From: Deltaproteobacteria bacterium
Lineage (GTDB): Bacteria; Myxococcota; Myxococcia; Myxococcales; 40CM-4-68-19
DNA: 64,000 nucleotides
Assembly: GCA_005879535.1 (NCBI GenBank)
Contig: VBKI01000071.1
Location: 1 to 64,000, forward strand
Direction: 5' to 3'
Both the position numbers and the translations under genes were made by a program. The notes under the pieces are model-generated. The model did no database searches. It was not told where the DNA came from and worked only from the letters and a program-made list of their open reading frames with translations. Below, in pieces: positions 7,045-62,526 of the stretch. The first letter of the stretch is position 1. Every line of letters starts with the position of its first letter.

Positions 7045-7050
7045 GAACGT

Positions 7051-12170: not shown

Positions 12171-12244
12171 CGCAGCCGGAGGCTTCTCGGCCGCGGGCTC
12201 CGCGGGGTAGCGGGGAAAGATATTGATCCCGCCCGGTCCGATGA

Positions 12245-14866: not shown

Positions 14867-15054
14867 TTGAATCCTCCCCGCTGAACGGGCGCCTCGATCG
14901 GCGCGGGGGAGGCCATCGACTGATCCACGACCTCCAGCCACGCCAACGTAACCACAAGGAAGGGCTCGTCAAGCACGCGACGAGGGGGAGTCGAAGTCCG
15001 TGCTGATCCCGGCAATAAAAGTTCGGCGCCCGCGAACTCCGGTAGAACGGCGCA

Positions 15055-16122: not shown

Positions 16123-16172
16123 AGGCGGACCCTGCGCGCAGAAAAGCCAACTCAGGCCACGCTGTAAACTCC

Positions 16173-16613: not shown

Positions 16614-16879
16614 GTGCTCCTCCGTTCTACACACCCCATAGCCGGTCGAGGCACCCGCCGCAGCATCAGCACGAGAAATTCGTGCAAGCTTTGGAAGCCT
16701 GGGTCAGCGCAGGCATGCCCTGCCCGCACGGTGGATGAAGGACGCTGCGAGCGGCGCCTTTTCGAGGCAACGCTCGACCACTCCGTCGCGCATCCGGCTC
16801 CCAAGGCGCACATGTCTGGGACGAAAATGTCGCTCAGGAAAAATTGCGCAGTGCGGCATGCCTAACTACGTTCGGCGCC

Positions 16880-17911
16880 ATGGCGGACTTCAAGTCAGGC
16901 CCGCGCGCGCACCTGGACGAGTGGGTCGCGCCCGACATCGCCGACGAGCTGGGATTTCTGCGCGCCGGCAAGATCCTCGAGTGGATGGACGTCGTCGGCG
17001 TTCTGGCGGCGACGCGCCACTGCCGGCGCCCGGTTGTCACTGCCTCCGTCGATGCAATGGAACTGCGGCACCCGATCAAGATCGGCGAGCGGGTCACGAT
17101 GACCGCCGAGGTGGCCTACACCTCTCCCCGGAGCATCGGCGTTTGTGTCGCGATGACGCACGGCCTTCCCACCGCAGGCACCGCGCGAGAATCGGTCGCA
17201 GGCTACATGACCTTCGTCGCTCTCGACGACGCGGGAAAACCAGGTCCCGTGCCGCAGCTGCATCCAGAGACCCTGGAGGAGATCACGCGCTTCGACGAGG
17301 GCCGGCTGCGCCGTGAGTTCCGCGACAAGCTGGCGAGCGGGCAGTTGCGCGGTCCGCCGGGCGGAGGCGGCTCCGCGGACAACACGCTGCTCATCCGCGA
17401 GTTCCTCAAGCTCCTTCCCGCGTTTCGCCTGCCATGGGAGCGCGCGGAAAAGCCGCGGCAGCGGCATCTCTCGTACGTCCACAAGATCGAGCCCATCCGC
17501 TCCAGCCGCCTCAACTTCCACGGCACGCTCTACGGCGGCACATTGATGCGCTGGATCGAAACGAGCGCGAATCTGTCTGCACGGGCGTGGCTCCGCGGCG
17601 AGCCGGTCCGGTTGGCCGGACTGCACGGCCTGAACTTCATCCGGCCAGTGACCCGGCACGTGTTCGTGCACATCCGCTCCGTGGTCGCGCACGCGACGCC
17701 GGAATCGATGACTGTGCTGGTGAACGTCCATGCGGAAAATCCGCTCTCTGACGGCCAGGAGGAAACGCTGCGCGCATTCCTGACCTACGCCCCGGCCCGC
17801 GAGGGATTCCGCGTCTCGCCCCTGCAATGCGAGGGCGAGGAAGAGCGAGCGCTGTTCGAGGAAGTGGAGCACCGGCTGGCGCTGCACCGGAGCCTCGCAT
17901 CCGTCGCGTAG
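16880..17911 (+). CDS. Tandem hot-dog acyl-CoA thioesterase
   Basis: 343 residues containing two hot-dog domains, about 15-130 and 195-330. The first has LRAGKILEWMDVVGVLAA, the second NFHGTLYGGTLMRWIETSAN, both variants of the N-x-x-G-x-(L/T)-x-G-G-x-(L)-x-W-(M/I)-(D/E) pattern of YciA/ACOT7-like thioesterases that hydrolyse acyl-CoA. In the first domain the pattern is degenerate. Acidic WMD and WIE carry the likely catalytic acids. A TTG at 16844 with AGGA upstream is an alternative start that would add 12 residues. The gene stands alone. Confidence 0.82.
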   Translation: MADFKSGPRAHLDEWVAPDIADELGFLRAGKILEWMDVVGVLAATRHCRRPVVTASVDAMELRHPIKIGERVTMTAEVAYTSPRSIGVCVAMTHGLPTAGTARESVAGYMTFVALDDAGKPGPVPQLHPETLEEITRFDEGRLRREFRDKLASGQLRGPPGGGGSADNTLLIREFLKLLPAFRLPWERAEKPRQRHLSYVHKIEPIRSSRLNFHGTLYGGTLMRWIETSANLSARAWLRGEPVRLAGLHGLNFIRPVTRHVFVHIRSVVAHATPESMTVLVNVHAENPLSDGQEETLRAFLTYAPAREGFRVSPLQCEGEEERALFEEVEHRLALHRSLASVA

Positions 17912-17923
17912 AATGCATCGGGC

Positions 17924-19312
17924 TCAGTGGTCGACGACCGGAATGACGTCGTAAGTCTTTTGCGATGCCGGCGCGGTTGCACGCGACGCGAGGGCGAGCG
18001 CGCACAGGTACAGCAGCGCGGCGCATCCGAGCGAAAGGCGGACGGCTTCCGCCGCCGGCCGGCCGTGGAAGGACGACGCGAACACGGCGATGCCGAGGGC
18101 CGTGCCGACCTGACGGCTCGTATTCAGCACCGCGCCGCCGATGCCCGCCAGCGAGGAAGGCACGCTGGCCAGGATCGCGGCGTTCATCGAGGGCGCGACC
18201 AGAGCTGCCCCAAGGCCGGTGAGCGCCAGGAGAGGCCCTTCCATGAAGAGGGGCGCCGAGGCCGGCAGCTCGGCGAGCCCCACTGCACTGGCGCAGAGGA
18301 CGGCGAGCCCACCGACCATCGGCGCGCGCGTTCCGTAGCGACCAGCCAGTCGCCCTGCGACGATGCTCGTCACGCCGAAGAAAACGCTGACGATACCGAA
18401 GAGCAGCCCCGCGGCCGCTGGACTATGTCCCTGGACGTCCTGGAACTCGATCGAGAGCACGAACAGGCCGCCGAAGAAGCCGGCAGCGTAAACCAGGGCT
18501 GCCGCCGCCGTGGTGGTGAAGGTCCGATCGCGAAAGAGGTGGAGCGGCAGCATCGGATCCGCGCTGCGTCGCTCGAGCGCGACGAACGCGGCGATTCCGC
18601 CGGCAGCGCAGACGAACGCGAGCACGATGAGTGGCGACGACCAGCCCCGAGCGGACCGTTCGATCAGCGCCCAGGTCAAGGCGGCGAGTCCGAACGCTCC
18701 CGCCGCTTGCGCACCTAGATCGAACGCCCTCGTCGCGGACGCGGGGCTGCGCTGCACAAAGCGGAGCGCCAGCAGGACGCCGAGCACGCCGATCGGGACG
18801 TTGATGAGGAAGATGCTCCGCCATCCGAATGCGTGGATGAGGGCACCGCCGACCAACGGACCGCTCGCGCCGGTCACGGCCGTGAGGCTGCTCCAGATGC
18901 CGATTGCCCGCGCGCGCTCGACGGGCTCGGGATAGGCGCTGCGGAGGATCGACAGCGATGCGGGCATGAAGAGCGCCGCGCCCATCCCTTGGAGGACCCG
19001 GGCGGCGATGAGCCAGCCGATGTCGGGCGCGGCGACGCACATCGCGGAGGCGGCGGTGAAGACGACGAGCCCAGCGGTGAACAACCGCCGCGCGCCGAGG
19101 CGGTCGCCCAGGCCTCCGGCCAGAAGCAGCAAGCTGGCGAACGGCAACGTGTACCCATCGACGACCCAGGAGAGGCCGGCTGCGTCGGTGTGCAGGTCCG
19201 CGCGGATGCTGGGAAGGGCGACGTTGCCGGCGGTGACGTCGAGCAATGCCATGCCCAGACCGAAGCTGCTGGCGATGAGGGTGAATCGGGGGTCGGGATG
19301 TGGCCGGGGCAT
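17924..19312 (-). CDS. MFS drug transporter, DHA2 (14-helix) type
   Basis: 462 residues with about fourteen membrane helices. The motif A region GGLGDRLGARRLFTAG, the motif C-like SGPLVGGALIHAFGWRSIFL and LDVTAGNVALPSI near the N-terminus fit EmrB/QacA-type proton-driven exporters. The ATG at 19312 follows GGAGG by 6 bases. It is transcribed divergently from the LysR gene; the 92 bases between them contain a palindrome, so the LysR protein likely controls it. Substrates of such pairs are usually toxic organic compounds, but none can be inferred here. Confidence 0.9.
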   Translation of the reverse strand: MPRPHPDPRFTLIASSFGLGMALLDVTAGNVALPSIRADLHTDAAGLSWVVDGYTLPFASLLLLAGGLGDRLGARRLFTAGLVVFTAASAMCVAAPDIGWLIAARVLQGMGAALFMPASLSILRSAYPEPVERARAIGIWSSLTAVTGASGPLVGGALIHAFGWRSIFLINVPIGVLGVLLALRFVQRSPASATRAFDLGAQAAGAFGLAALTWALIERSARGWSSPLIVLAFVCAAGGIAAFVALERRSADPMLPLHLFRDRTFTTTAAAALVYAAGFFGGLFVLSIEFQDVQGHSPAAAGLLFGIVSVFFGVTSIVAGRLAGRYGTRAPMVGGLAVLCASAVGLAELPASAPLFMEGPLLALTGLGAALVAPSMNAAILASVPSSLAGIGGAVLNTSRQVGTALGIAVFASSFHGRPAAEAVRLSLGCAALLYLCALALASRATAPASQKTYDVIPVVDH

Positions 19313-19385
19313 GCATGCCTCCGCGCGGGTCCGCCGGGATAGATGCATGCGCTACTCGGAGGGTGGCCTCGCCCGCGCATGTAAA

Positions 19386-19403
19386 CCATGCAATTCTGCA
19401 TGG
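19386..19403. promoter_or_regulatory. Inverted repeat between MFS and lysR genes, likely LysR operator
   Basis: CCATGCA, four bases, TGCATGG: a perfect 7-base inverted repeat ending 2 bases before the lysR ATG at 19405. LysR-type regulators bind such dyads in the shared region with their divergent target. Its position over the lysR start would let the protein repress itself. Confidence 0.55.
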
Positions 19404-19404
19404 C

Positions 19405-20295
19405 ATGGCGGACTGGGACGCGGTGCGCTTCTTCCTCGAGCTGGCGCGCGCGAAAACCCTGGCGCGCGCCGCGCGCAGGCTGCGGGTCGATTACACGACG
19501 GTGGGCCGGCGGGTCTCCGCCTTCGAGCGCGAGCTCGGCGCGAAGCTCTTCGAGCGGACCCCCGACGGGTTCGTGCTCACCGACGCGGGCGAGAGCATCC
19601 GCGCCGCCGCGGAGCAAATGGAGCAGTCCGCCCTCGCCGTCGAGCAGCGGGCGCTCGGCGCTGACCGCCGCCTGTCGGGCACCGTGCGCATCGCCGCAGC
19701 CGAATCGGCTGGCCACGCGGTGGTCCTCCCGGCCATGCGCGAGCTGCACCGGCGCCACCCGGAGATCCGGCTGCACTTGCAGACGGGACTTGCGCGCCTG
19801 GACATCGCGCGGCGGGAGGCGGACCTGGCGCTCCGCTTCACGTCACCCGAATCCGGCGATCTGCGCTTCCGCCGGCTGACGGCGATCGGGTTCGCACTCT
19901 ACGCGTCCGCGGATTACCTCGCGCGGCACCGCCCGCCCGCGCCTGGAGCAGGGTTCGCCGGGCACGACGCGGTCCTCTTCGAGGAAGGCTTCCGCGGGGC
20001 GCCGGCATTTGCGTCGCTCACTCACTCGCTGCGCGACGCCCGCGCTGCCGTCCGAGCGAACAGCATGCTGTCGCTGGTCGAAGCCGTAGCGAACGGCCTC
20101 GGCGTGGGAGCGCTCACGTGCTGCCTGGGCGATACGGATCCGCGGCTGCGCCGCGTCTTCCCCGATCTACCCGTGGAGCGCGTCGATCTGTGGCTGGTCG
20201 TGCACGCGGACGTCCAGCGCACCGGACGCATCCGCGCGCTCATTGCGGCGCTGGAAGCGCGCTGCAGGGAAGCAGCCGCGGTGCTGCGGGGATGA
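19405..20295 (+). CDS. LysR family transcriptional regulator
   Basis: 296 residues: an N-terminal winged helix-turn-helix (FFLELARAKTLARAARRL, then VDYTTVGRRVSAFERELGAK) and a LysR substrate-binding domain from about residue 90. It probably regulates the divergent MFS exporter. The ATG at 19405 is the only start that gives a normal N-terminus (MADWDAVRFF); it has no ribosome binding site and follows directly on the palindrome, so translation may be leaderless or weak. It is convergent with the SDR gene. Confidence 0.9.
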   Translation: MADWDAVRFFLELARAKTLARAARRLRVDYTTVGRRVSAFERELGAKLFERTPDGFVLTDAGESIRAAAEQMEQSALAVEQRALGADRRLSGTVRIAAAESAGHAVVLPAMRELHRRHPEIRLHLQTGLARLDIARREADLALRFTSPESGDLRFRRLTAIGFALYASADYLARHRPPAPGAGFAGHDAVLFEEGFRGAPAFASLTHSLRDARAAVRANSMLSLVEAVANGLGVGALTCCLGDTDPRLRRVFPDLPVERVDLWLVVHADVQRTGRIRALIAALEARCREAAAVLRG

Positions 20296-32167: not shown

Positions 32168-32174
32168 CGCTGCC

Positions 32175-32843
32175 ATGAAGACCACGACCAACCCCAAGAC
32201 AGCGAAGCGCGCGGAGATCGTCCGCGAATATGGCCCGTTTCCGGGCATCGAGGAAGTCCACGGCGTCACCTGGGACGGCCGAAACATCTGGTTCGCCAGG
32301 GGCGAAAAGCTCGCCGCCATCGACCCTGCAAGCGGAGAGCTGGTGCGCCAGCTCGACGTCGCGGCCGACGCCGGGACCGCTTTCGATGGCAAACATCTCT
32401 GGCAGATCGCCGAAGACCGGATCCAGAAGGTGGACCCCAAGACGGGCCGCGTGCTGGGCAGCATTCCCGCGCCGGCACAAGGCCGCGACTCGGGCCTGAC
32501 GTGGGCCGAGGGTACGCTCTGGGTCGGCGAATACCGCGCGCGCAAGATCCACCAGGTCGACGCGAACACGGGCGCGATCCTGCGCACCATCGAGTCGGAT
32601 CGGTTCGTCACCGGCGTCTCGTGGGTCGACGGCGAGCTCTGGCACGCCACGATGGAGGACGAACAGAGCGAGATCCGGCGCATCGATCCGGAGAACGGCG
32701 AAGTCCTCGAGCGCCTGGAGATGCCCGCGGGCGTCACCGTCAGCGGACTCGAGGCCGATGGCAAGGATCTGTTCTTTTGCGGCGGCGACACGAGCGGCAA
32801 GGTACGCGCCGTCCGCAGGCCGACCGCGCGCAACCAGCGCTGA
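32175..32843 (+). CDS. YncE/glutamine-cyclotransferase-like beta-propeller protein
   Basis: 222 residues of repeating four-stranded blades with the pattern W-(D/E)-G-x-x-(I/L)-W and ID-P-x-(S/T)-G-x-(L/V): GVTWDGRNIWFARGEKLAAI, GLTWAEGTLWVGEY and GVSWVDGELWHATMED. This matches the propeller of YncE-like and glutamine cyclotransferase-like proteins. No signal peptide is present, which is unusual for the group. It follows the HTH regulator by 7 bases, so the two are co-transcribed. Ligand or reaction is not predictable. Confidence 0.75.
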   Translation: MKTTTNPKTAKRAEIVREYGPFPGIEEVHGVTWDGRNIWFARGEKLAAIDPASGELVRQLDVAADAGTAFDGKHLWQIAEDRIQKVDPKTGRVLGSIPAPAQGRDSGLTWAEGTLWVGEYRARKIHQVDANTGAILRTIESDRFVTGVSWVDGELWHATMEDEQSEIRRIDPENGEVLERLEMPAGVTVSGLEADGKDLFFCGGDTSGKVRAVRRPTARNQR

Positions 32844-49976: not shown

Positions 49977-50021
49977 TGGAGCGGAACACCGGGTTCGAAC
50001 CGGCGACCTTCGCCTTGGCAA
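49977..50021 (-). repeat. 3' fragment of a tRNA-Gly(GCC) gene, direct repeat copy 1
   Basis: On the minus strand: anticodon loop TTGCCAA (anticodon GCC), 3' anticodon stem GGCGA, variable AGGTC, a complete T arm GCCGG-TTCGAAC-CCGGT, the 3' acceptor strand GTTCCGC, and TCCA. The 5' half is missing: the bases before the loop cannot pair with GGCGA, and no GCGGAAC acceptor strand is found. A 39-base core (49983-50021) recurs at 62308-62346 with one mismatch, in the same orientation. Confidence 0.8.
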
Positions 50022-50220
50022 TTCTGAAGGCCAGGATTCCCGAACCTCCACGCCACGGTCTACACGCTGTGCGCCCGTGGACGACTGCCACACGTTCGCA
50101 TCTCGAGATCTCGCTGCGTTCATCGTCGCACGTCCGGAGCACGAATGACCCCTGGCCGAAAACGCCCCGCTTGACGAGTCGTGGCGAACGGCGTAAACGC
50201 GCCAACGCAATTGCTAGACG

Positions 50221-50395
50221 TGCCGCCGTGGCGCCCCACAAGGGCCTAGAGGGAAGCCGGTCGAATTCCGGCGCGGTCCCGCCACTGTAGCCGGGCAGCT
50301 CGTCCCAGAAGCCACTCGGTGCATGCACCGGGGAAGGCGGGACGCGCGCGCAGCGAGTCGCTGCGGACCCGGGAGCCAGGAGACCTGCCTGGCGG
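50221..50395 (+). ncRNA. Cobalamin riboswitch
   Basis: The conserved features are in order: GAGGGAAGCCGGT (50249-50261), a GCGCGGTCCCGCCACTGTAG core (50270-50289), GCCACTCGGTGCATGCACCG, GGGGAAGGCGGGA, and the B12 box AGCCAGGAGACCTGCC (50374-50389). It lies 47 bases before the btuB start. Binding of adenosylcobalamin should lower expression of the whole operon downstream. Confidence 0.95.
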
Positions 50396-50441
50396 CATGA
50401 GACGAAGTCCTTCGCCTCTTCGAGAGAAAGAGGGAGACATC

Positions 50442-52445
50442 ATGCCGCTGGTCGAAGCCCCGCAGGGGCGTCTCGTTTGTTCGCGCGCGAAGTCGGCCGC
50501 GAGCTTCTTCACCGTCCTCCTGTCCGCGTTGCTCTCCTGGACGCGGAGCGTCCGTGCCGATCAGGACGCGGGCGTCCCGGAGGAGCCTGTTGCCGGGCCA
50601 CTGACCGAGGTCATCAATGTCCGCGGCTCGCGCCCGAGCGGCGCCGCGCAGACCTCAGTGGTGGACGCCGAACGTTTCGCAGGCGAGGCGCCGACGGTCG
50701 CCGAGCTCCTCGCCACATCGCCCGGCGTCTCAGTGCAGCGGAGCGGCGGCCCGGGACAAGCCGCGTTCGTGTCGCTGCGCGGAGCGTCGCCCGATCAAAC
50801 GCTCGTGCTGCTCGACGGCATTCCGCTCCAAGGGCCCGGCGGCGATGCCATCGACCTGTCCACGCTGCCATCCTCGTTCGTAAGCAAGGTGGTCGTTAGC
50901 CGCGGCGTTCTCGGCGCGCAGCTCGGCGCCGGCGCTCTCGGCGGGGCGGTCGAGCTGGTGCCGAAGACGACCGGTGCTTCCGAGCCGCAGTTTGGCGCTG
51001 AACTCGCCGCCGGGTCGTTCGGCTCGGTGCGCGTGACGGCGGATGCGGTGGTCTCGCTGGCCAGCGCGGCCCGCAGCATCGTGGCGATACAGCTCGATCG
51101 GACGAACGGCAGGTTCCAGTACGAGCGCCAGTTCACGCCGGAGATCCCGGGCGCGCCCTACTACCCAGCCGTGCGGGAGAACGCCGATGCGATGCGCGGC
51201 TCGCTGCTGGTGCGGACCGAAGTGCCGCTGCGCGAAGGCCTGGAGCTCGACGCTCTTTTCCAGGGCACCGCGGCCAGCCGCGGATTGCCTGGACCTGTGG
51301 GCATGTTCACGCCGCGGGCGCGTGAAAGCGACCAAGGCGGGATCTTCGGCGCGCGACTGCGGGCGACCGTCGGGGAGACCGTGATCCAGGCTCGCGGCTG
51401 GGGCCGCGCCAGCCTCGTCCAGCTGCGCGCGCTCGGACTGGGTTTCGACTGTCCCGAAGGCGGTTCGAGCCCTGCTTGCGCGGTCCAGCAGAGCCACACA
51501 CTGGGGACGCGCGGCGAGCTCGAGGTGACGTTCCCCGTTTCTCTCAGCCATTCCATCGCGACGTCCCTATCCGCGGGCGGCGAATGGCTAGCAGGAAGCT
51601 ACGCCGGAATCCACCGCCGCGAGATCGTCTCGCTGGGGATCTCCGACGACGCTTCGCTCCTGCGGGGAGCGCTCTCCGTGTATCCGGCACTGCGGCTCGA
51701 CTTCGTTGGGACAATGACCGGATTCAGTCCGGGCCTGAGCGCCAGCGCGCGACCCTTTCTGGGCACTGCTGTCGAACCCTTCGAGGTGCGAGCTGGCGCT
51801 GGAGCCTCCTTCCGCCCGCCCACCTTCTCGGAATTGTATCTCGACACGGGCCCTACGCAGCCGAATCCAGATCTGCGCCCCGAGCGGGCCCTGTCGGTCG
51901 ACGCCGGCCTGCGTTGGAAGACCCATCCGTTCACCGCCTCGGCCGGCGTCTTCTGGTCTCGCTATCGCGATCTGATCCTTTACGAGCTGTATCCGCCGGC
52001 GCGGGTGAAGCCGTACAACATCGGCGCTGCGCGAATCCGAGGCGCCGAAGTCCAACTCTCCGTCAGACTCCCGCTCGAGGTTGGCCTCGAGGTGGCCTAC
52101 AGCTTCGTCGAGGCGGTGAACGAGCGGCCCTCGGCGACCCAAGGAGGGCGCAAGCTCTCGTACCGCTCGCCCCACCGCCTCTTCGCGCGGCTCGACCGCC
52201 GGGGAGACCGGCTCGAAGGTTTCGTTCAAGTCCAGCTCTCCTCGGCGATGCCGCGAAACGCGTATGGCACGGCCGAACTGCCCGCGCAGGTCTGTATCGA
52301 CGCAGGCGCGGGTGTGCGCGTGGCTGGCCCACTCTGGGTCGACCTCGAAGTCCGCAACGTGCTCGACGACCGTACGCAGCAGGATCTCTTCCAGTACCCG
52401 CTTCCGGGGGCCTCGTTCCAGGCGACCGCGCGGGCCCGCTTCTAG
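50442..52445 (+). CDS. btuB: TonB-dependent cobalamin receptor
   Basis: 667 residues, ATG behind AGGGAGACATC. After the signal sequence comes the TonB box region (TEVINVRG), the plug domain (VAELLATSPGVSVQRSGG, FVSLRGASPDQTLVLLDGIP) and a 22-strand barrel ending in the required C-terminal phenylalanine (ATARARF). It imports cobalamin and other corrinoids across the outer membrane at the expense of TonB energy. The riboswitch in front and the B12 genes behind fix the substrate class. Sequence alone would only give a TonB-dependent receptor. Confidence 0.93.
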   Translation: MPLVEAPQGRLVCSRAKSAASFFTVLLSALLSWTRSVRADQDAGVPEEPVAGPLTEVINVRGSRPSGAAQTSVVDAERFAGEAPTVAELLATSPGVSVQRSGGPGQAAFVSLRGASPDQTLVLLDGIPLQGPGGDAIDLSTLPSSFVSKVVVSRGVLGAQLGAGALGGAVELVPKTTGASEPQFGAELAAGSFGSVRVTADAVVSLASAARSIVAIQLDRTNGRFQYERQFTPEIPGAPYYPAVRENADAMRGSLLVRTEVPLREGLELDALFQGTAASRGLPGPVGMFTPRARESDQGGIFGARLRATVGETVIQARGWGRASLVQLRALGLGFDCPEGGSSPACAVQQSHTLGTRGELEVTFPVSLSHSIATSLSAGGEWLAGSYAGIHRREIVSLGISDDASLLRGALSVYPALRLDFVGTMTGFSPGLSASARPFLGTAVEPFEVRAGAGASFRPPTFSELYLDTGPTQPNPDLRPERALSVDAGLRWKTHPFTASAGVFWSRYRDLILYELYPPARVKPYNIGAARIRGAEVQLSVRLPLEVGLEVAYSFVEAVNERPSATQGGRKLSYRSPHRLFARLDRRGDRLEGFVQVQLSSAMPRNAYGTAELPAQVCIDAGAGVRVAGPLWVDLEVRNVLDDRTQQDLFQYPLPGASFQATARARF

Positions 52446-52519: not shown

Positions 52520-53662
52520 ATGAACCGTTCCGTATCCACTCGATCGTTTACCCTGGCGCTGGCGGCATTCCTGGCCAGCTGCAGCGGCGGCAGCTTCCGC
52601 GCACCGCCTCCCCTCGCCAGCATCACTTTGCCTTCTGGAAGCGCGTTGCGGCCCTTCGATCCCACCCATCCCACCCGGCCCGCGCCTGCCGTCATCGCGT
52701 CCGGACCAAGTGGATCCGCTTTCGTTTCCTTGACCAACCTCGACGACAACTTCGCGCCTGGGGGTCCCGGCATGCTGGTCCGGGTCCAGCCGGAGACCGG
52801 TGTCAGGACGGTGATCCTGCCCGGCGGCGCGGACGATCACGCCTGCACCAACAGCGGCGTGGTGAGAAACGACGGCAACCTGCTGCTGGTGGTCTGCGCC
52901 GGCTCGTTCTCCGCGCAGGAGTTACGCGGACGCGCGGTGATCGAGGTCGATCCGGCCACGAACGCGCCGCTCCGCAAGGCATCGCCACCGGCGGGTTTCC
53001 AGCCGTCGTACGTCGCCAGTGGTCCAAGCAAGATATGGGTGGGCGACTTCGGCTCCGCGCGCCTCTACAGCCTCGACCGGAGCACGTTCGCGCTGGCCGA
53101 CGGCGCGGACGAAAGTCACCCCGCCATCCAGCTGCCCTGCCCCGCGTCGCTGACGTACGTGGCCGATCTGCTGGTGAACGGCAACGATCTGTTCGCGCTC
53201 TGTGGAGCGGACGAGGGCTACCTGGTCCGGCTCGACCCGCAGAGCGGCGCCGTCAAGGGCGACAAGGTCTTGGTCGGCGCCCAGCCTACCGCGATGACCG
53301 TCGCCGGCGACGGCCGTCTGGCGGTGGTCAACTCAGTGAGCGGCACCCTTACGATGGTGACGATCGGCGCGCAGACGATGATTGCCGAGGTGAACTTCTT
53401 CTCCTTCGGCAAGAGCGCCGCGCTGCAGGACGTGCGCGCACGCGGCCAGTTCCTCTATACCGTGGCGTCCGCCACCAACACGGTGCAGAAGCTCGACCTG
53501 TCCGTGAAGGACCCGGCGAAGATGTTGGTCGCGGAGGTCAACACCGGCGACGGTTCGAACCCCTGGAACATCCTGCCGCTCGACGACGACCAAGCGATCG
53601 TCAGCAACTTCATCGCCGGAAACATTGTCGGCGTGGACTTCAGAAAAGGGGCGAGGCCGTGA
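52520..53662 (+). CDS. Beta-propeller lipoprotein of the B12 operon, BtuG-like
   Basis: 380 residues, ATG behind GAGGTCCAC. A lipoprotein signal (FTLALAAFLASCSGGSF, lipobox cysteine at about 21) is followed by a repeating YncE-type propeller: VLVRVQPETG-type blades such as GRAVIEVDPATNAPLRK, GDFGSARLYSLDRST and GAVKGDKVLVGAQPTAMTV. It lies between btuB and cobT, and overlaps cobT by 4 bases, so it is under the riboswitch. In gut Bacteroides the surface lipoprotein BtuG is a propeller that captures B12 on BtuB; position and build agree, but I do not claim homology. It has also a few cysteines (HACTNSG, CPAS) that could form disulfides. Confidence 0.8.
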   Translation: MNRSVSTRSFTLALAAFLASCSGGSFRAPPPLASITLPSGSALRPFDPTHPTRPAPAVIASGPSGSAFVSLTNLDDNFAPGGPGMLVRVQPETGVRTVILPGGADDHACTNSGVVRNDGNLLLVVCAGSFSAQELRGRAVIEVDPATNAPLRKASPPAGFQPSYVASGPSKIWVGDFGSARLYSLDRSTFALADGADESHPAIQLPCPASLTYVADLLVNGNDLFALCGADEGYLVRLDPQSGAVKGDKVLVGAQPTAMTVAGDGRLAVVNSVSGTLTMVTIGAQTMIAEVNFFSFGKSAALQDVRARGQFLYTVASATNTVQKLDLSVKDPAKMLVAEVNTGDGSNPWNILPLDDDQAIVSNFIAGNIVGVDFRKGARP

Positions 53663-54720
53663 AAGTCGTCGTCCCGCCGTTCGACCTCGCCTCCGCGGAG
53701 CTGGCCCGGGCGCGCCAGCAGCGCCTGACCAAACCCCGCGGGAGCCTCGGCCTGCTCGAGGACATTCCCGTGCGGCTCGCCGGGCTGCAACGAACTGCGC
53801 TGCCGGCTTCGCGGCCCGCGGCCGCGATCGTGTTCGCCTCCGACCATCCGGTCGCCCGGCACGGCGTCTCAGCCTATCCCGTGGAAGTCACCGCGGCGAT
53901 GCTGCGCAACTTCGTCGCCGGCGGCGCGGCGGCGAGCGTCCTGGCCAAAGAGCTCCGGGTTCCGCTCCACATCGTCGACGTCGGCGTGCGAGACGGCGCC
54001 GATCTCGCGTTCGAGCAGGACATTCGTCTCGCCCGCGCGCCCGTGGCTCGAGACGAAGTGGGCGACCTGAGGGTGGAGGACGCGATGAGCGAGGCGACGT
54101 TCGCCCGCGCCGTCCTGGCCGGGGCGGCCGCGGTGGACGCATTGCCCGCGGGCGTTCTGGTGCTAGCCCTGGGCGAGATGGGAATCGGAAACACCACCGC
54201 CGCCTCGGCGGTGGCCGCAATGCTCCTGGACGCGCGCGGTGCGGACGCCGATACGCTCGTGGGCGCCGGCACCGGCGTGAGCGGTGCCGCGCTGGCACGG
54301 AAGAGAGCGGTCGTGCGCGACGCGCTCGCACGCGTCGGCAAGGTCGGTTCGTCCCTGGAGGCCGTTCGCCGGCTGGGCGGGCGCGACATCGCCGCGCTGT
54401 TCGGAGCCGCCGCGCGCGCCTGCGAGCGTGGAATGGCGATCCTCGTCGACGGCTTCATCGTTTCCACGGCGGTCCTTGCCTTGGTGCGGACAGCGCCCGC
54501 GGTGCGCAGATCCCTCTTCTTCGCGCACCGCTCTGCCGAGCCGGGGCACCGCCGCGTCCTGGAGGCGATGGAAGCAAGACCCCTCCTCGACCTCGAGCTG
54601 CGCCTGGGCGAGGCGAGCGGAGCGCTGCTCGCGCTGTCCCTCCTCGATCACGCCTGCGCGCTCCACGTGCGCATGGCGACCTTCGCCTCGGCGGGCGTCC
54701 CGGACGGCGGCGCCCCATGA
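53659..54720 (+). CDS. cobT: Nicotinate-nucleotide-dimethylbenzimidazole phosphoribosyltransferase
   Basis: 353 residues from a GTG that overlaps the preceding stop. CobT makes alpha-ribazole phosphate, activating the lower ligand of cobalamin. Features: TKPRGSLGLLEDIPVRLAGL near the start, FASDHPVARHGVSAYPVEVT, the GEMGIGNTTAASAVAAMLLD loop and GAGTGVSG, and FFAHRSAEPGHRRVLEAM with the catalytic glutamate. It overlaps cobS by 4 bases. Confidence 0.96.
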   Translation: MKVVVPPFDLASAELARARQQRLTKPRGSLGLLEDIPVRLAGLQRTALPASRPAAAIVFASDHPVARHGVSAYPVEVTAAMLRNFVAGGAAASVLAKELRVPLHIVDVGVRDGADLAFEQDIRLARAPVARDEVGDLRVEDAMSEATFARAVLAGAAAVDALPAGVLVLALGEMGIGNTTAASAVAAMLLDARGADADTLVGAGTGVSGAALARKRAVVRDALARVGKVGSSLEAVRRLGGRDIAALFGAAARACERGMAILVDGFIVSTAVLALVRTAPAVRRSLFFAHRSAEPGHRRVLEAMEARPLLDLELRLGEASGALLALSLLDHACALHVRMATFASAGVPDGGAP

Positions 54721-55484
54721 CCGTCCTTCGCGCGGTGCCGGCTGCGTTTGCCTTCCTCACCCGGCTGCCGGTGGGCGGACCGGCATTCACTGCGGAGGAC
54801 TTGCGCTGGAGCTCCGCGCACTTTCCGCTCGTGGGTGCGGTGCTGGGGTCGGTCCTCGCGGGGGTGATGCTGGTCTCCGCGCGCGCCGGCCCGGTGGTGT
54901 CGGCCGCTCTCGCCGTATCCGCCGGAATGCTGCTCACGGGCGCCTTCCACGAGGACGGCCTCGCGGATACCGCCGACGCGCTGGGCGGCGCTTCCGATCG
55001 CGAGAAGCTGTTCGTGATCCTGCGCGACAGCCGCATCGGGACCTTCGGCGCGGCGGCCCTCTGCATGGCGCTTCTCCTGCGGGTCGCGCTCCTCTCCGCT
55101 CTTGCCGGACTGGCGCCCTTGGCGCTGCTGCTGACGCAAGCGCTGGCGCGTCTTCCGCCGGTGTGGATGATGGCGATCTTGCCTTCGGTGTCGCCGGAAG
55201 GCGCGAAGAGCAGCGCTGTGGTGCGCGCTGGGGCGGCGCAGGTGGCGGTCGCGAGCGGCTGGATCGCGCTGCTCTTCGGCGCGGCCGCCGTTACCGGATT
55301 CCTCGACTGGAGGTTGCTGGTGGGCCTGCTCGCGATCGCCGGCCTGACCGCGGTCGCGTGCGGCGTCCGCTTCATGCGGCGGGCCGGCGGATTGACGGGA
55401 GACTTCCTCGGCGCCACGGAGCAGGTGGTGGAGTGCACCCTCCTGCTCACGCTTGCTCTCTGGCGGGGAAGCGGCGTCCGATGA
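54717..55484 (+). CDS. cobS: Adenosylcobinamide-GDP ribazoletransferase (cobalamin synthase)
   Basis: 255 residues, multi-pass membrane protein. CobS joins adenosylcobinamide-GDP with alpha-ribazole (phosphate). Characteristic segments: FLTRLPVG, GAFHEDGLADTADALGGASD with the acidic active-site residues, ILRDSRIGTFGAAAL and GLTGDFLGATEQVVE. ATGA overlaps on both sides (cobT, cobC) show tight translational coupling. Confidence 0.95.
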   Translation: MTVLRAVPAAFAFLTRLPVGGPAFTAEDLRWSSAHFPLVGAVLGSVLAGVMLVSARAGPVVSAALAVSAGMLLTGAFHEDGLADTADALGGASDREKLFVILRDSRIGTFGAAALCMALLLRVALLSALAGLAPLALLLTQALARLPPVWMMAILPSVSPEGAKSSAVVRAGAAQVAVASGWIALLFGAAAVTGFLDWRLLVGLLAIAGLTAVACGVRFMRRAGGLTGDFLGATEQVVECTLLLTLALWRGSGVR

Positions 55485-56047
55485 GCCTCCTCCTGTGCGC
55501 GCGGCATGCCGCGGTCGCGGTCACCAACCGCTGTTACGGGAGGCTCGACCTGCCCCCGGGCGAGGACCCGCGCGCGAGCGCGAGGCGTCTTTCGCTCGCG
55601 CTCCCGAGCACGACCCCGCTGGCGGTCTGGACGAGTCCGTTGCGGCGCTGCCGCGAAGTGGCTGACGAGCTTGCCCGGCTCCTGAAGGCCGTCCTGCGCA
55701 TCGACGACAGGCTGGCGGAAATCGATTTTGGCGAATGGGAGGGCCGCGGCTGGAACGAGATCGAGCGCCGGGATCGCGTCCGCTACGAAGCATGGCTCGC
55801 CTCCTGGCGCGACGTCGGTCCGCCGGGCGGCGAATCTCTCGTGGCTTTCGAAGGTCGCGTCCGCGCGTGGGCAGGTGAACGCGGCGCTCACGGCGACATC
55901 GAGACCTTGGCGTTGGTCGGTCACGCGGGCGTCATCCGTGCCCTGCGCGTGCTCGGGGCAGGCGCCACCTGGGACGAAGCGCTCCACCAGCCCATTCCGC
56001 ATCTCGAGTGGCTGGCCCTTCCCATCGCTCGAGATTCGCACCGATGA
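55481..56047 (+). CDS. cobC: Alpha-ribazole phosphatase (histidine phosphatase family)
   Basis: 188 residues. The phosphohistidine motif is CARHAAVAVTNRCYGRLDLP: RHA in place of RHG, as seen in the CobC branch of the family. Other histidine-phosphatase features are TSPLRRCREVA, IDFGEWEGRGWNEI and VGHAGVIRAL with the second catalytic histidine. It would remove the phosphate left on the nucleotide loop by CobT/CobS. It overlaps both neighbours by 4 bases. Confidence 0.88.
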   Translation: MSLLLCARHAAVAVTNRCYGRLDLPPGEDPRASARRLSLALPSTTPLAVWTSPLRRCREVADELARLLKAVLRIDDRLAEIDFGEWEGRGWNEIERRDRVRYEAWLASWRDVGPPGGESLVAFEGRVRAWAGERGAHGDIETLALVGHAGVIRALRVLGAGATWDEALHQPIPHLEWLALPIARDSHR

Positions 56048-56889
56048 AGATCCCGCTTCGAGCTTGGACCATCCTTCTTTGCGCGCTGGCGGTGGCGCGA
56101 GGTGCGCCAGCCGCGGCGCAGCGGGTGGTCAGCCACACCGTCGGCACCGACGAGCTTCTGCTCGCCCTGGCCGATCCGGGGCAAATCGCCGCCCTCAGCC
56201 ACCTTGGCCGCGACCGGGCTTACAGCCTGAACGCAAGCGAGGCGGCGGCGTATCCCACGCTGAAGAGCAACGATGCGGAGAGTGTCATGCGGTTCCGTCC
56301 GGACCTCGTGCTGGTCGCCAGTTACACGGAGGCGCCCACGCTCGCGCTCCTCCGCCGCGCGGGCGTGAGGCTGATCGTCGTCGAGCGCTTCGAGTCGCTC
56401 GAGGACGTCTACGCGAACATCCGCGCCATCGGCGCCGCGCTCGGCCATTCCGATCGCGCCGAGAAGCTCATCGGGAGCACGAAACAGCGCGTAGCCGAGC
56501 TCGCCCGCAAGCTGGAGGGAGTGAAACCGGTCCGCGTGCTGGCGGTGAGCACCTATCCATTCACCGCAGGCTCGCAAACCACGTTCCAGGATCTCTGCGA
56601 CCACGCCGGCGCGATCAACGTGGCCGCCGAAGCGGGCCTCGTCGGGCATGCCTCGACCCCCGATGAAAAGCTGCTCACCTGGAATCCAGAGCTGCTGATC
56701 GCCTCGGATAACGAGGGAGCCGGCTTGGAGGCCCGGCTCTGGCAGATGCCGGCCTACCGGCACCTGCCGGCGCTGAGGGCCGGCCAGCTGGTCCTTCTTC
56801 CCGGGCCGCTGATGGCGAGCGTCACTCACCATCGCGTCGCGGCGTTCGAGGCGCTTGCCCGCAAACTGCACCCGGAGCGTTTCCCGTGA
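56044..56889 (+). CDS. btuF: Periplasmic B12-binding protein of the BtuFCD importer
   Basis: 281 residues with a Sec signal (WTILLCALAVARGAPAAAQ). It has the two-lobe, single-helix-linker fold of BtuF: RVVSHTVGTDELLLALADPG, RFRPDLVLVASYTEAPTLAL, TFQDLCDHAGAINVAAEAGL and WNPELLIASDN. It delivers corrinoid from BtuB to the BtuCD permease. Start overlaps cobC by 4 bases; the stop overlaps the GTG of btuC. Confidence 0.9.
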   Translation: MKIPLRAWTILLCALAVARGAPAAAQRVVSHTVGTDELLLALADPGQIAALSHLGRDRAYSLNASEAAAYPTLKSNDAESVMRFRPDLVLVASYTEAPTLALLRRAGVRLIVVERFESLEDVYANIRAIGAALGHSDRAEKLIGSTKQRVAELARKLEGVKPVRVLAVSTYPFTAGSQTTFQDLCDHAGAINVAAEAGLVGHASTPDEKLLTWNPELLIASDNEGAGLEARLWQMPAYRHLPALRAGQLVLLPGPLMASVTHHRVAAFEALARKLHPERFP

Positions 56890-57857
56890 AGCGACGGCTC
56901 GTCACCTGGCTGCTGGTCTCGCTGCTGCCGGCCGCATTTCTCGCGTCGCTCGCGCTCGGCGAGGTGCGGCTCCCGCTCACGGACGTCGCGCAGGCGCTTC
57001 GCGGCCGGGGAGATCCCATCGCCGTGACGATCGTCCGCGATTTCCGTCTGCCGCGATCGCTGGTCGGAGCAGCCGTCGGCGCCGCGCTGGCGGCGAGCGG
57101 CGTCGTGATGCAGGCGTTCTTCCGCAACGCGCTGGCGAGCCCGGGACTGCTTGGTGTTTCCAGCGGCGCCGCGCTGGGTGCAGTGTCGGTGCTGGCGTTC
57201 GGAATCGGGCATGCGCTTTGGACCGTCCCGCTCGCGGCCATCGCGGGCGCCTTCGCCGCCACGGCGGCCGTGGTCGTGCTCGCCCGGAGAGGCGCCGCGA
57301 CGGAGCGACTGCTCCTCTCCGGAATCGCGCTGAATGCTCTCCTGGACGCGGGGACGGCGTTCGTGCTCTCGGCCAATGCCGGCCGCCTCGAGCTCAGCGG
57401 CCAGATCCTCTTCTGGTTGATGGGCGGGCTCGAGAGCCGTACGGCCGAGCACGTGATCATCGGCATTCCTTCCATCGTGGTCGCCTGCGTTCTCCTGCTG
57501 CCGCTGGGGCGCGACCTCAATCTCATCAGCCTCGGCGAGCAGAGCGCGCAGAGCCTGGGCGTGGACGTGCGCCGGGTGCGTTGGAGGCTCGTCGTTCTCT
57601 CTACCCTGCTCACCGCGCTCGCCACCTCCGTCGCGGGAGTGGTCGGCTTCGTCGGGCTGGTCGTTCCACACCTCTTGCGGCTGTCGCTCGGTCCCGATCA
57701 CCGGAGACTCCTTCCCGCCTCGATGATGGGCGGAGCGGTCCTGACGCTCGCCTGCGACGTGGCGACGCGCCTCCTCCCGGGCGGGCTGCGCCTTGGCGTG
57801 ATCACGGCGCTCGTGGGCGGTCCGTTCTTCCTCTGGATGCTGAGGACGCTGGCATGA
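56886..57857 (+). CDS. btuC: Vitamin B12 ABC transporter permease
   Basis: 323 residues from a GTG, with about ten membrane helices of the FecCD/BtuC family. Landmarks: LRLPRSLVGA-like RDFRLPRSLVGAAVGAALAA, QAFFRNALASPGLLGVSSGA, the coupling loop around GEQSAQSLGVDVRRVRWRLV, and VGFVGLVVPHLLRLSLGPDH. It forms the channel of the corrinoid importer with BtuD. Overlaps of 4 bases on both sides. Confidence 0.94.
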   Translation: MKRRLVTWLLVSLLPAAFLASLALGEVRLPLTDVAQALRGRGDPIAVTIVRDFRLPRSLVGAAVGAALAASGVVMQAFFRNALASPGLLGVSSGAALGAVSVLAFGIGHALWTVPLAAIAGAFAATAAVVVLARRGAATERLLLSGIALNALLDAGTAFVLSANAGRLELSGQILFWLMGGLESRTAEHVIIGIPSIVVACVLLLPLGRDLNLISLGEQSAQSLGVDVRRVRWRLVVLSTLLTALATSVAGVVGFVGLVVPHLLRLSLGPDHRRLLPASMMGGAVLTLACDVATRLLPGGLRLGVITALVGGPFFLWMLRTLA

Positions 57858-58588
57858 GCGCTCTGACGGTCCGCGCGCTGACGGTGCCCGGCCGACTGAA
57901 CGGCGTGTCCTTCGCGCTGCGGCACGGCACCCTGGCAGCCGTCGTCGGCCCGAACGGGAGCGGCAAGTCGACATTGCTCCAGGCGGCCGCGGGACTCCTG
58001 CCGGCCGGCGGCGACGTCGAGCTGGATGGACGGACGCTGCCGCGCATCGCCGTCATCGACCGGGCGCGACGCCTGGCCTGGGTGCCGCAGGAAGCGAGCT
58101 TCCAGTTCGCCTTCAGCGTCCGGGAAGTGGTCGCCCAGGGGCGCTACATGTGGGCCGACGATGGGAGCGGCGTCGATGATGCGCTGACCGCCTTCGACCT
58201 TCGAGATCTGGCGGACCGGCCGGTGACCCGGCTCAGCGGGGGCGAGCGCCAACGGGTGAGCCTTGCACGCGCGGTCGCGACCGGGGCTAGATTGCAGCTC
58301 TGGGACGAGCCCGTCGCCCAGTTGGACGTGCGGCACGCTCTCGAGGTCATGGCCCTGGCGCGCCGATTCGCGAACGGCGGCGCTGCGCTCCTCGTCAGCC
58401 TCCACGACCTGCGCATGACGCGCTCGTTCGACCGCGTCCTTCTGCTCCAGCTCGGCCGGTTGGTCGCCGATGGCCGCCCGGAGGAAGTGCTCACTCCCGC
58501 TGCCATCCTCAAAGTCTTCGGAGTGCGTGCACGCCCTGCTGTTTCCCTTCATCTGGAGCTCCCCGATGACAGACGCGAACGAGCATGA
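57854..58588 (+). CDS. btuD: Vitamin B12 ABC transporter ATPase
   Basis: 244 residues. Complete ABC ATPase: Walker A GPNGSGKST, Q-loop region AWVPQEASFQFAFSVREVVA, signature LSGGERQRVSLARAV, Walker B LQLWDEPVAQLD and the switch histidine in LLVSLHDLRM. It energises BtuC. Start overlaps btuC by 4 bases; its last 23 bases overlap cobO in another frame. Confidence 0.94.
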   Translation: MSALTVRALTVPGRLNGVSFALRHGTLAAVVGPNGSGKSTLLQAAAGLLPAGGDVELDGRTLPRIAVIDRARRLAWVPQEASFQFAFSVREVVAQGRYMWADDGSGVDDALTAFDLRDLADRPVTRLSGGERQRVSLARAVATGARLQLWDEPVAQLDVRHALEVMALARRFANGGAALLVSLHDLRMTRSFDRVLLLQLGRLVADGRPEEVLTPAAILKVFGVRARPAVSLHLELPDDRRERA

Positions 58589-59156
58589 AGCGGAGATGAA
58601 GGCTTTGCAGAAGCAGATGCGCAGCAAGATGGCCGCCGCCCGCCGCCGCAAGGGACTGATCATCGTCCACACCGGCGACGGAAAGGGAAAGACCAGCGCC
58701 GCCCTGGGCATGTTGCTGCGCTCGCTCGGCCACGGCTTCAAATGCGCGGTGGTCCAGTTCATCAAGGGCGGCCGCGGGACTGCAGAGTCCCTGCTCAAGT
58801 CTCCACGCCTGCGGTGGGACAAGGTCGGCCAGGGCTTCACCTGGGACACGCAAAGCCGGGAGAAGGATACGCAGTGCGCCCGGGCCGGGTGGGCGCTGGT
58901 GCGGCGACATTTGGCGGACCCCGAGCTGAAGTTCCTGTTGCTCGACGAGTTGAACATCGTCCTGTCCTACGAGTACCTCCCCGCCGCCGAAGTGATCGAG
59001 GCCCTGCGGAACAAGCGCGAGGACCTGCACGTGGTGGTCACCGGCCGCGGCGCTCTTCCGGCGCTGATCGAGATCGCGGACCTGGTGACCGAGATGAAGG
59101 AGATCAAGCACCCCTTCAAGGAAGGCATCCGGGCGCAGCCGGGGATCGAGTTCTGA
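58566..59156 (+). CDS. cobO: Corrinoid adenosyltransferase (CobA/CobO/BtuR type)
   Basis: 196 residues. It transfers adenosyl from ATP to the cobalt of corrinoids. The P-loop is HTGDGKGKTSAALGMLLRSL, followed by CAVVQFIKGG, WDTQSREKDTQCARAGW and LLLDELNIVLSYEYLPAAEV, with the C-terminal ITEMKEIKHPFKEGIRAQPG-type ending of the family. The start lies inside the 3' end of btuD; the stop shares a base with cobU (TGATG). Confidence 0.94.
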   Translation: MTDANEHEAEMKALQKQMRSKMAAARRRKGLIIVHTGDGKGKTSAALGMLLRSLGHGFKCAVVQFIKGGRGTAESLLKSPRLRWDKVGQGFTWDTQSREKDTQCARAGWALVRRHLADPELKFLLLDELNIVLSYEYLPAAEVIEALRNKREDLHVVVTGRGALPALIEIADLVTEMKEIKHPFKEGIRAQPGIEF

Positions 59157-59665
59157 TGGGAACGATCCTGTTCGTCACTGGTCCGGCGCGGAGCGGGAAG
59201 AGCCGCTGGTCGGTGGCTCGCGCGCGCGAGTGGGGACCCGAGGTGGTCTTCGTCGCGACCTGCAGGCCCGGCGATCCGGAGATGGACGACCGCATCCGCG
59301 TCCACCGGAGCGAACGACCTTCCTGGCGCACCATCGAGGCGCCCGATAGCGTCAGCGCGGCACTCGCGAGCATCCTGCCGCCGCCGAGTGGCGTGGTGCT
59401 CGACTGCGTCACCCTCTGGATGAGCGACCGGCTGGACTCGACCGACGACCAGATCCTGGCGGCGTGGGACGAGGAGCTCGGCGCATTGCGGCGGGCGGCG
59501 TGGCCGGCCGTGATCGTCGGCAATGAAGTGGGCTGGGCGCCGGTGCCCGATTCCATGCTCTTGCGCCGCTTCCGCGATCTCAATGGCTGGCTCGGTCAGC
59601 GGACGGCGGAAGCCGCCGACGAGGCCTGGCTCCTGATCGCCGGCCGGCCGCTGCGCCTCAAGTGA
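59156..59665 (+). CDS. cobU: Adenosylcobinamide kinase / adenosylcobinamide-phosphate guanylyltransferase
   Basis: 169 residues. CobU phosphorylates adenosylcobinamide and attaches GMP. Features: P-loop VTGPARSGKSRW, VFVATCRPGDPEMDDRIRVH with the GMP-acceptor histidine region, VVLDCVTLWMSDRL and VGNEVGWAPVP...LNGWLGQRTAEAADEA. Start overlaps cobO by 1 base; its stop overlaps the GTG of cobQ. Confidence 0.94.
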   Translation: MGTILFVTGPARSGKSRWSVARAREWGPEVVFVATCRPGDPEMDDRIRVHRSERPSWRTIEAPDSVSAALASILPPPSGVVLDCVTLWMSDRLDSTDDQILAAWDEELGALRRAAWPAVIVGNEVGWAPVPDSMLLRRFRDLNGWLGQRTAEAADEAWLLIAGRPLRLK

Positions 59666-61083
59666 CGGCGATCCCGAAACGCCCGATCATGGTGCTCGGC
59701 TGCAGTAGCGATGCCGGGAAATCGTTCCTCGCCGCGGCGCTGTGCCGCTGGTTCGCGCGGCGGGGGGAGCGAGTGGCGCCGTTCAAGGCGCAGAACATGT
59801 CGAACAACGCGGGCGTGTGCGCGGACGGATCGGAGATCGGACGCGCCCAGTACCTTCAGGCCCTCGCCGCCGGCGTGCCGCCGGAGGCCCGGATGAATCC
59901 GGTCCTGCTCAAGCCCGAATCGGACACGCGCAGCCAGGTCGTGGTCCTGGGCCGCTACGATTCGCGGTTGAGCGCGATGCCTTGGCTCGAGCGTCGGGAT
60001 CGGCTCTGGCCTGCCATCGCGGGCGCACTCGATTCCCTGCTCGGGGACTTCGAGCGGATCGTGCTGGAGGGCGCGGGCAGCCCGGGGGAACCGAATCTGA
60101 TGCCGGGAGATGTAGTGAACTTCGCCGTCGCGCGACACGCAGGCGCCGCCTGCTACCTGATCGCGGACATCGATCGGGGCGGCGCCTTCGCGCACCTGCT
60201 CGGGACCTGGGAGACGTTGGAGCCGCGGGACCGCGCGCTCCTCCGCGGATTCGTCTTGAACAAGTTCCGCGGCGATCCGGCGCTCCTGCTCGACGCGCGA
60301 GAATGGCTGCGGACGCGGACCGGCATTCCCACATCGGCGCTGGTCCCGTATCGGCGACACTTGCTGCCCGAGGAGGACGCGTTCTTCCATCGGCCGAACT
60401 GGCGGACGGGTGCAACACGGGTGGCGCTGGTGCTGTACCCCTACGCGTCGAACCTCGACGAGTTCGACCCGCTGGTGCACGAGGAAGGCGTGGATGTGGT
60501 GCCGATCGAGGGGCCGGAAGGACTGGAGGGAGTGGGCGCGGTCCTTCTCCCCGGGAGCAAGAACACGGCGGCAAGCCTGGATTACCTCCGTCGCAGCGGA
60601 CTCGCCGCTCGGATCTGCTCGCTGGCCAGAGCCGGCGTCCCCATCCTGGGGATCTGCGGCGGCCTGCAGATGCTGGGCAGACGGGTCCGCGATCCCCAGC
60701 GGATCGAGGGGCGAGACGCCGAGGGGTTGGGATTGCTCGACGTCGAGACGACCTTCGCCGGCGAGAAGACGACACGAAGGACGCGAGTGCATTCCGCGGA
60801 CTGCGGCTGGATCGAGGGGTACGAGATCCACCTTGGCCAGACGGCCGCCGACGCTCACGTCGAGACACACCTGGATGGCGGCCTCGGGTTTCGCCAGGGC
60901 AACGTCGCAGGCGTCTACCTGCATGGCCTGTTCGAGAACACCTCCTATCGGCTTCACTTCCTCCGCTCGCTCGGATGGAGCGGCGCGACCGCCGAGTGGG
61001 ACCAGCGCATCCGCGCAGATCTCGACCGGGTCGCCGACCTGATCGACGAATCCGGTTGGGCGCGCGATCTAATCGCTCTTTGA
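59662..61083 (+). CDS. cobQ: Cobyric acid synthase (glutamine amidotransferase)
   Basis: 473 residues from a GTG. CobQ amidates adenosylcobyrinate a,c-diamide at four positions. N-terminal P-loop-like VLGCSSDAGKSFLAAALCRW, KAQNMSNNAGVCADGSEIGR and RSQVVVLG; C-terminal amidotransferase with LLPGSKNTAASLDYLRRSG and GICGGLQMLGRRV (nucleophile cysteine) and GVYLHGLFENTSYR with the histidine. Its presence means more than simple cobinamide salvage is possible. It is the last gene of the operon visible; cbiB and cobD are not here. Confidence 0.95.
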   Translation: MTAIPKRPIMVLGCSSDAGKSFLAAALCRWFARRGERVAPFKAQNMSNNAGVCADGSEIGRAQYLQALAAGVPPEARMNPVLLKPESDTRSQVVVLGRYDSRLSAMPWLERRDRLWPAIAGALDSLLGDFERIVLEGAGSPGEPNLMPGDVVNFAVARHAGAACYLIADIDRGGAFAHLLGTWETLEPRDRALLRGFVLNKFRGDPALLLDAREWLRTRTGIPTSALVPYRRHLLPEEDAFFHRPNWRTGATRVALVLYPYASNLDEFDPLVHEEGVDVVPIEGPEGLEGVGAVLLPGSKNTAASLDYLRRSGLAARICSLARAGVPILGICGGLQMLGRRVRDPQRIEGRDAEGLGLLDVETTFAGEKTTRRTRVHSADCGWIEGYEIHLGQTAADAHVETHLDGGLGFRQGNVAGVYLHGLFENTSYRLHFLRSLGWSGATAEWDQRIRADLDRVADLIDESGWARDLIAL

Positions 61084-62211: not shown

Positions 62212-62526
62212 GGTAATTCCTTCGGAAGGCCATCAGCATCGACAAGTAACTTTCCCTCTGGGGCTGCGATAATCAAACGGTTTCCCGATGTCAGCCCTCG
62301 GTTGCGTGGAACACCGGGCTCGAACCGGCGACCTTCGCCTTGGCAACGAGGCAGCCCGCCATCCGCGATGATCAGTAGTTGCATTGACCAACGCAAGGCG
62401 GCCTCCTTGCTGCCGCCCATTGAGACTCTGCGCGAGGAAAACGCTACAGCCGTCGATCAGACAGTGGAACCGTTCGCCGGACGCATTCCCTCCTGCAGCG
62501 CTGTACGGGGCGCCAGGAGGATTCCA
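62212..62526. other. Intergenic stretch holding the second tRNA-Gly fragment
   Basis: 315 bases between the divergent DUF2938 and cytochrome genes. Apart from the tRNA fragment at 62308-62346 I see no gene. Frames crossing the fragment (for example reading LRGTPGSNRRPSPWQ on the plus strand) are translations of tRNA sequence and not proteins. Confidence 0.5.
62308..62346 (-). repeat. 3' fragment of tRNA-Gly(GCC), direct repeat copy 2
   Basis: Same 39-base core as 49983-50021, one mismatch (C for T, in the T loop region). It runs from the anticodon loop TTGCCAA through the T arm to GTTCC of the acceptor strand; then it diverges, so the acceptor end and CCA are lost. The 5' half is absent, as in copy 1. 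Confidence 0.75.

Follow-up and report, generated by a model that had tools for sequence, protein, structure and literature searches.

The gene directly downstream of btuB in the 64,000-nucleotide stretch of Deltaproteobacteria bacterium DNA analyzed here (the window) encodes a lipoprotein propeller that is probably a surface lid on BtuB for the capture of corrinoids. The lipoprotein signal, the propeller fold, the riboswitch ahead of the operon, the strict one-to-one pairing with BtuB and the likeness of distant family members to the Bacteroides protein BtuG are computational results. Surface exposure, B12 binding and a complex with BtuB are inferred.

The B12 operon and its propeller lipoprotein

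The operon is headed by a cobalamin riboswitch (Table 1). An earlier note on this DNA, made from the letters alone, had described a lipoprotein with a repeated propeller pattern between btuB and cobT, a riboswitch above btuB and a 4-base overlap with cobT. All of these features were recovered: the open reading frame is exact, the riboswitch scores well above its cut-off, and the propeller gene and cobT share GTGA at 53659 with the cobT start inside the propeller stop. GAGG precedes the propeller open reading frame. The genes after cobT are, in order, cobS, cobC, a btuF-like gene, btuC, btuD, cobO, cobU and cobQ, and their family matches assign the operon genes beyond the propeller to B12 import and late corrinoid assembly. 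A comparison of the window BtuB with PDB entries gave E. coli BtuB as the top match (2e-16), and Bacteroides BtuB ranked lower (2e-11). Its top NCBIfam model was TIGR01779 (TonB-B12), with a score under the cut-off of that model.

Table 1. Positions of the riboswitch, genes and protein regions of the B12 operon in the window
Feature	Position	Strand	Evidence
Cobalamin riboswitch (Rfam RF00174), upstream of btuB	50211..50406	+	cmscan 91.9 bits, cut-off 31.5, E 1.7e-21
btuB, TonB-dependent vitamin B12 receptor, 667 aa	50442..52445	+	Pfam Plug and TonB barrel
BtuG-like lipoprotein propeller, 380 aa	52520..53662	+	Exact ORF: ATG start, TGA stop
Lipoprotein signal peptide, residues 1-20	52520..52579	+	Lipobox LASC before Cys21 (sequence)
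Seven-bladed propeller domain, residues 30-380	52607..53659	+	DSSP of AlphaFold model; alignments
cobT, GTG start	53659..54720	+	TIGR03160, 341.6 bits (curated CobT match)
cobS, cobC, btuF-like, btuC, btuD, cobO/cobA adenosyltransferase, cobU, cobQ	54717..61083	+	NCBIfam matches

Two further features of the DNA were recorded around the operon. Base pairing is predicted between the riboswitch 3' end, GGCGGCATGA, and the region of the btuB start codon, TCATGCCGCT (50380-50460; z-score -2.5), which suggests translational control of btuB. Copies of a 39-nt repeat lie on either side of the B12 operon at 49983-50021 and 62308-62346, 97% identical and in the same orientation. The repeat core resembles a tRNA T-arm (GGTTCGAACC) and has five copies genome-wide, the others being on contig C71 (78299-78333), C40 and C48. 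No intact tRNA was found. The repeat may represent attachment sites derived from a tRNA or the scattered remains of one.

The amino terminus of the propeller protein reads MNRSVSTRSFTLALAAFLAS up to the predicted cut and CSGGSF after it, with the lipobox L-A-S-C and Cys21 as the first residue of the processed protein. Cys21 is kept in 16/16 aligned relatives. The AlphaFold model, built with the 16 relatives in the alignment, has a pLDDT of 89.5 and a pTM of 0.87. DSSP analysis of the model divides it into seven four-stranded blades; in blade 7 the last strand comes from the amino terminus (residues 34-36). The protein is confidently predicted to fold as a seven-bladed propeller, and the propeller pattern seen earlier in the letters thus withstood structure prediction, which gave no sign of a non-propeller fold. 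A Pfam scan of the window propeller found no family above cut-off, only sub-threshold propeller matches. Cys109, Cys126, Cys207 and Cys228 are invariant (16/16 relatives). Judged by sequence position, in blades 2 and 4 each pair would link the loop ahead of strand A to the end of strand B, and disulfides between the four are inferred from this arrangement.

In 12/12 homologs, the face built from the DA and BC loops has a net acidic composition and the other face is about neutral, based on loop counts without electrostatics that do not establish the ligand side. In BtuG2, the B12 site is on the negative face (PMC10404256). Conservation of the DA/BC face is not higher than that of the opposite face (permutation p 0.91), which weakens the acidic-face argument.

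Inner-membrane lipoproteins of Myxococcus xanthus typically carry Lys at +2, and exported ones Ala at +7 (PMC3222651). In the window lipoprotein, position +2 is Ser and position +8 is Ala; most relatives have the Ala at +7 or +8. The inner-membrane retention signal of the M. xanthus rule (Lys at +2), which would have contradicted the lid proposed in the earlier note, was not found in the window protein. In Myxococcus-type and related members (L048, L049, L051, L052, L186-L189), one to several Cys-rich Stig1-like repeats (CGxxCVDLxxDxxNCGxCGxxC) are placed between the lipid anchor and the propeller, which suggests a stalk in these members.

The outer-membrane lipoproteins of Proteobacteria mostly face inward and the sorting signal of the window protein is unproven, leaving room for a propeller that faces the periplasm on the inner side of BtuB, where it would relay B12 to BtuF or tether BtuB. 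There is a precedent for periplasmic propellers beside TonB receptors in E. coli YncE, whose gene is next to the TonB receptor gene yncD; YncE is not known to be lipid-anchored, and the partner receptor is YncD and not BtuB. This orientation is considered unlikely for the window protein because the operon already codes for a BtuF-like protein, the Stig1-like repeats suit a long extracellular stalk and the distant members are BtuG-like, BtuG being surface-exposed (PMC6143338). A lid on the outer side of BtuB is the preferred, inferred placement.

Pairing of the propeller with btuB across Myxococcota

The propeller gene is directly after btuB in 11/11 same-family genomes (44-97% identity), and none of these genomes has a second copy away from btuB. 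The window's own genome has two riboswitch-btuB-propeller loci, one in the window and one on contig C52 (L033; positions 1-20000). The L033 propeller is ~45% identical to that of the window. It is followed by btuC and btuD, and no salvage genes like the window's were detected directly after the locus. The riboswitch is present in 12/13 same-family and own-genome loci, and the contig carrying the thirteenth (L037) stops ~320 bases upstream of the btuB match.

Most relatives have btuC and btuD after the propeller, which marks the salvage genes as the unusual part of the window operon. This gene order is difficult to reconcile with a corrinoid-modifying enzyme of the lactonase propeller type, periplasmic or on the surface, such as a nucleotide-loop or side-chain hydrolase. 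Such an activity would fit the adjoining cobT, cobS and cobC genes and an operon that runs on into salvage, and propellers do include lactonases and lyases, with virginiamycin B lyase among the Foldseek matches. An enzyme is nevertheless very unlikely, as no conserved catalytic set was recognized and there was no match to Lactonase (PF10282) at or above cut-off, only isolated weak ones (E 0.03-0.04, one member each, 16 relatives).

The pairing with btuB was surveyed in 40 regions downstream of cobalamin riboswitches across Myxococcota, picked regardless of the propeller gene. An iterated profile located btuB in 20/40 regions. The next gene after btuB encodes a lipoprotein propeller in 20/20 of the btuB loci, which represent 12 families. 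Eighteen of these genes were identified by an iterated propeller profile, and those in L078 and L087 were assigned by eye as lipoproteins with propeller-like repeats. Many of the propeller genes share 4 bases with btuB, and nearly all encode a cysteine where one is expected. Weak profile matches (for example L075 and L083, 1e-5 to 1e-4) reflect the broad propeller class and not close kinship. Loci of Myxococcus-like genomes that were picked by a propeller match again have the order riboswitch, btuB, propeller. Twenty other TonB-receptor loci from two same-family genomes served as the control, and in these the next gene is never such a propeller; one locus is preceded by a generic YVTN propeller, and at another a generic propeller is encoded further downstream. 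The placement of the propeller beside btuB is far beyond chance and is conserved phylum-wide.

The earlier note had allowed that absence of the gene beside btuB in all relatives would refute the lid; it is beside btuB in every relative with btuB found. The note had also attributed the BtuG-like lid to one lineage. The lid itself is supported by the survey, but it is not a peculiarity of that lineage and is general in Myxococcota.

The phyla covered were Myxococcota and Bacteroidota. The Myxococcota placement of the surveyed genomes is partly an inference, including from family structure. The same-family relatives are mostly metagenome-assembled genomes, start codons in relatives were set by rule, and a single scan of genome contigs returned same-family metagenome-assembled genomes only. 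Searches of plasmids with the window protein and the distant proteins found no relatives. A generic YVTN propeller directly upstream of a non-B12 TonB receptor was seen in the window's own genome (L164; contig C81, 6438-8747), and it is related to the B12 propeller family only by the repeat.

Relation to BtuG and circular permutation

The closest known proteins are BtuG1, BtuG2 and BtuG3 of Bacteroides (PDB 3DSM, 8bmx, 8okv, 8p97, 8ptd), which act there as the lid of BtuB. A BtuG3 fragment scores 48.7 bits against DUF5074 (PF16819), the BtuG family, and the window protein has no match to this model at the curated cut-off. A PDB search with the single window sequence returned chance matches only. 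The window profile gave hhalign scores of 43-65 against BtuG and about 92 against generic YVTN propellers. Homology between the window protein and BtuG by direct profile comparison looked promising at first and failed against these generic controls. Membership of the window protein in the BtuG family was likewise rejected, and without a DUF5074 match or any special closeness it is called BtuG-like, a term for an inferred function and not for proven membership. No BtuG binding residue was mapped onto the window protein. The Bacteroidota lipoprotein export signal, described as exclusive to Bacteroidetes (PMC6143338), follows the cysteine as MKWD in BtuG2; it is absent from the window protein, which reads CSGGSFRAPPP with no acidic residues directly after the cysteine.

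The DUF5074 model was also searched against 117 Myxococcota genomes. It found mostly generic propellers, and the only match beside btuB was in G064, at the L078 locus, where 21.5 bits (cut-off 27.2) is the top score among the BtuB-adjacent Myxococcota members. A small propeller-like protein of the window, at 32172-32843, outscores the btuB-adjacent one against DUF5074, indicating that the DUF5074 model is too unspecific here.

A generic YVTN/NHL surface propeller that is in the operon by chance and does something else, for instance metal or redox handling, would fit a window subfamily profile that is as near to generic YVTN as to BtuG, but it is scarcely credible in the face of a strict phylum-wide btuB pairing under the riboswitch, 0/20 occurrences at other TonB receptors and the lack of further copies in same-family genomes.

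Distant members of the family connect the putative BtuB lid to BtuG. The profile of a group of distant btuB-adjacent Myxococcota proteins (A4) matched BtuG chains at 2.6e-6 versus 4.5e-4 for E. coli YncE. The A4-BtuG alignment spans ~305 columns in register from the signal peptide to the last blade with hhalign scores of 98-107, and generic multi-sequence propeller profiles reached 48-53 against BtuG. In the reverse view, generic profiles scored 84-93 against A4 and the margin is smaller. The A4 group has 12 sequences only, and the margin is moderate. The model of one distant relative (L079; pLDDT 86.0) gave BtuG chains at all Foldseek ranks from 1 to 16, with YncE at rank 50. A second group of relatives (A3) scored 164-171 against A4, with controls at most 99. 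Profile comparisons thus support a chain from the window family through A3 and A4 to BtuG, the last link being moderate.

The window protein differs from these relatives in the order of its blades. Its carboxy-terminal half matches the amino-terminal half of relatives and vice versa, a swap seen with several other families of the order and several distant families. A doubled profile fused the two halves into one continuous match. With the window-family alignment rotated to start at residue 213, hhalign against the A3 relatives scored 399 over 317 columns instead of ~255, and a start at 254 lifted the A4 score from 95 to 130. Two generic-propeller controls scored 50-87 under the same rotations (84 and 73 unrotated). 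The gain in score on rotation indicates that the propeller of the window lineage is rotated, which makes the window protein divergent from its distant relatives and a circular permutant of them. A Foldseek search of the PDB with the window model returned many propellers, with BtuG from rank 16 on and mixed with others, and this blur is probably due to the permutation. A specific likeness to BtuG structures, a comparison suggested in the earlier note, is seen for the distant L079 model and not for the window model.

Common descent with BtuG is likely, not proven. The earlier note had proposed an analogous protein, evolved independently or transferred, and the specific BtuG likeness of the distant members now makes ancient descent probable. 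It is unlikely that Bacteroidota recently passed on a btuB-btuG cassette, given that the pairing is phylum-wide and that the window BtuB lies closer to the E. coli receptor than to the Bacteroides one.

The Bacteroides system and the Myxococcota one share a seven-bladed lipoprotein propeller encoded next to btuB, a cobalamin riboswitch and a propeller for every btuB copy; an acidic face may be a further common trait, judged from loop counts alone. The distant Myxococcota members match BtuG specifically in fold and full-length profile. Unlike BtuG, the window protein lacks a DUF5074 match and the Bacteroidota export signal, is circularly permuted and has four invariant cysteines. Its gene is downstream of btuB, whereas btuG is upstream in the Bacteroides finegoldii locus (L111). 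Two Persicobacter plasmids (L112, L113; Cytophagales) encode a DUF5074 protein directly after a TonB receptor, the order found in Myxococcota. E. coli YncE (PDB 3vgz) is also a seven-bladed YVTN-type propeller but is a weaker match than BtuG for the distant members. XusB of Bacteroides fragilis (PDB 9hqk) is a lipoprotein with a fold near that of L079 (Foldseek ranks 18-29), but it binds xenosiderophores and its ligands are ferric siderophores, not B12. The archaeal surface-layer YVTN propeller 1L0Q was the top PDB sequence-profile match, as expected for canonical YVTN blades, and has no tie to B12 or TonB receptors.

Proposed corrinoid capture by a BtuB lid

In the proposed mechanism, the propeller would be anchored as an outer-membrane lipoprotein and sit over BtuB at the cell surface. 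It would bind cobalamin or other corrinoids outside the cell, by analogy with BtuG (PMC6143338, PMC10404256), and pass them to BtuB for TonB-driven import. BtuFCD would then carry out import and the CobOUSTCQ salvage enzymes would finish the corrinoid, all from the same riboswitch-controlled operon. Riboswitches of the cobalamin class allow expression when cobalamin is scarce, and the propeller should accordingly be made under cobalamin scarcity. CbiC and CbiD are absent from the window's own genome and from 43/45 genomes tested, which means that the corrin ring is probably not built and that outside corrinoid is probably needed. The organism probably scavenges corrinoids. As a separate observation, four riboswitch loci (L064, L065, L067, L068) of G035 and G019, the two relatives that do have CbiC and CbiD, lack btuB and the propeller.

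BtuG was described as exclusive to Bacteroidetes in papers of 2018 and 2023, and lipoprotein-capped TonB transporters were said to seem exclusive to that phylum (PMC10404256, 2023). B12-binding proteins of the DUF4465 type are reported in Myxococcota among other clades (PMC13398666). The literature search found no account of a BtuG-like propeller lipoprotein in Myxococcota. The kind of protein is already known; relative to the literature found, what is new is its occurrence across the phylum and its permuted form.

On balance, we favor the view that lipoprotein-capped B12 transport is general in Myxococcota and not a specialty of gut Bacteroidota, and that the lid of the window lineage was permuted by about half a propeller and kept its job. 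If the Myxococcota propellers are B12 lids, the published restriction of such lids to Bacteroidetes is mistaken. Their users would then include soil bacteria, often predatory and for the most part apparently unable to make the corrin ring, and the usual gut-competition explanation of the lid would have to be broadened. The finding raises the question of how Myxococcota place lipoproteins on the outer face, and Myxococcus xanthus offers a tractable genetic model for the lid. The permuted lid would be a natural experiment on which parts of BtuG-type lids are important, and a circular permutant would help the study of how bound B12 is handed over to BtuB.
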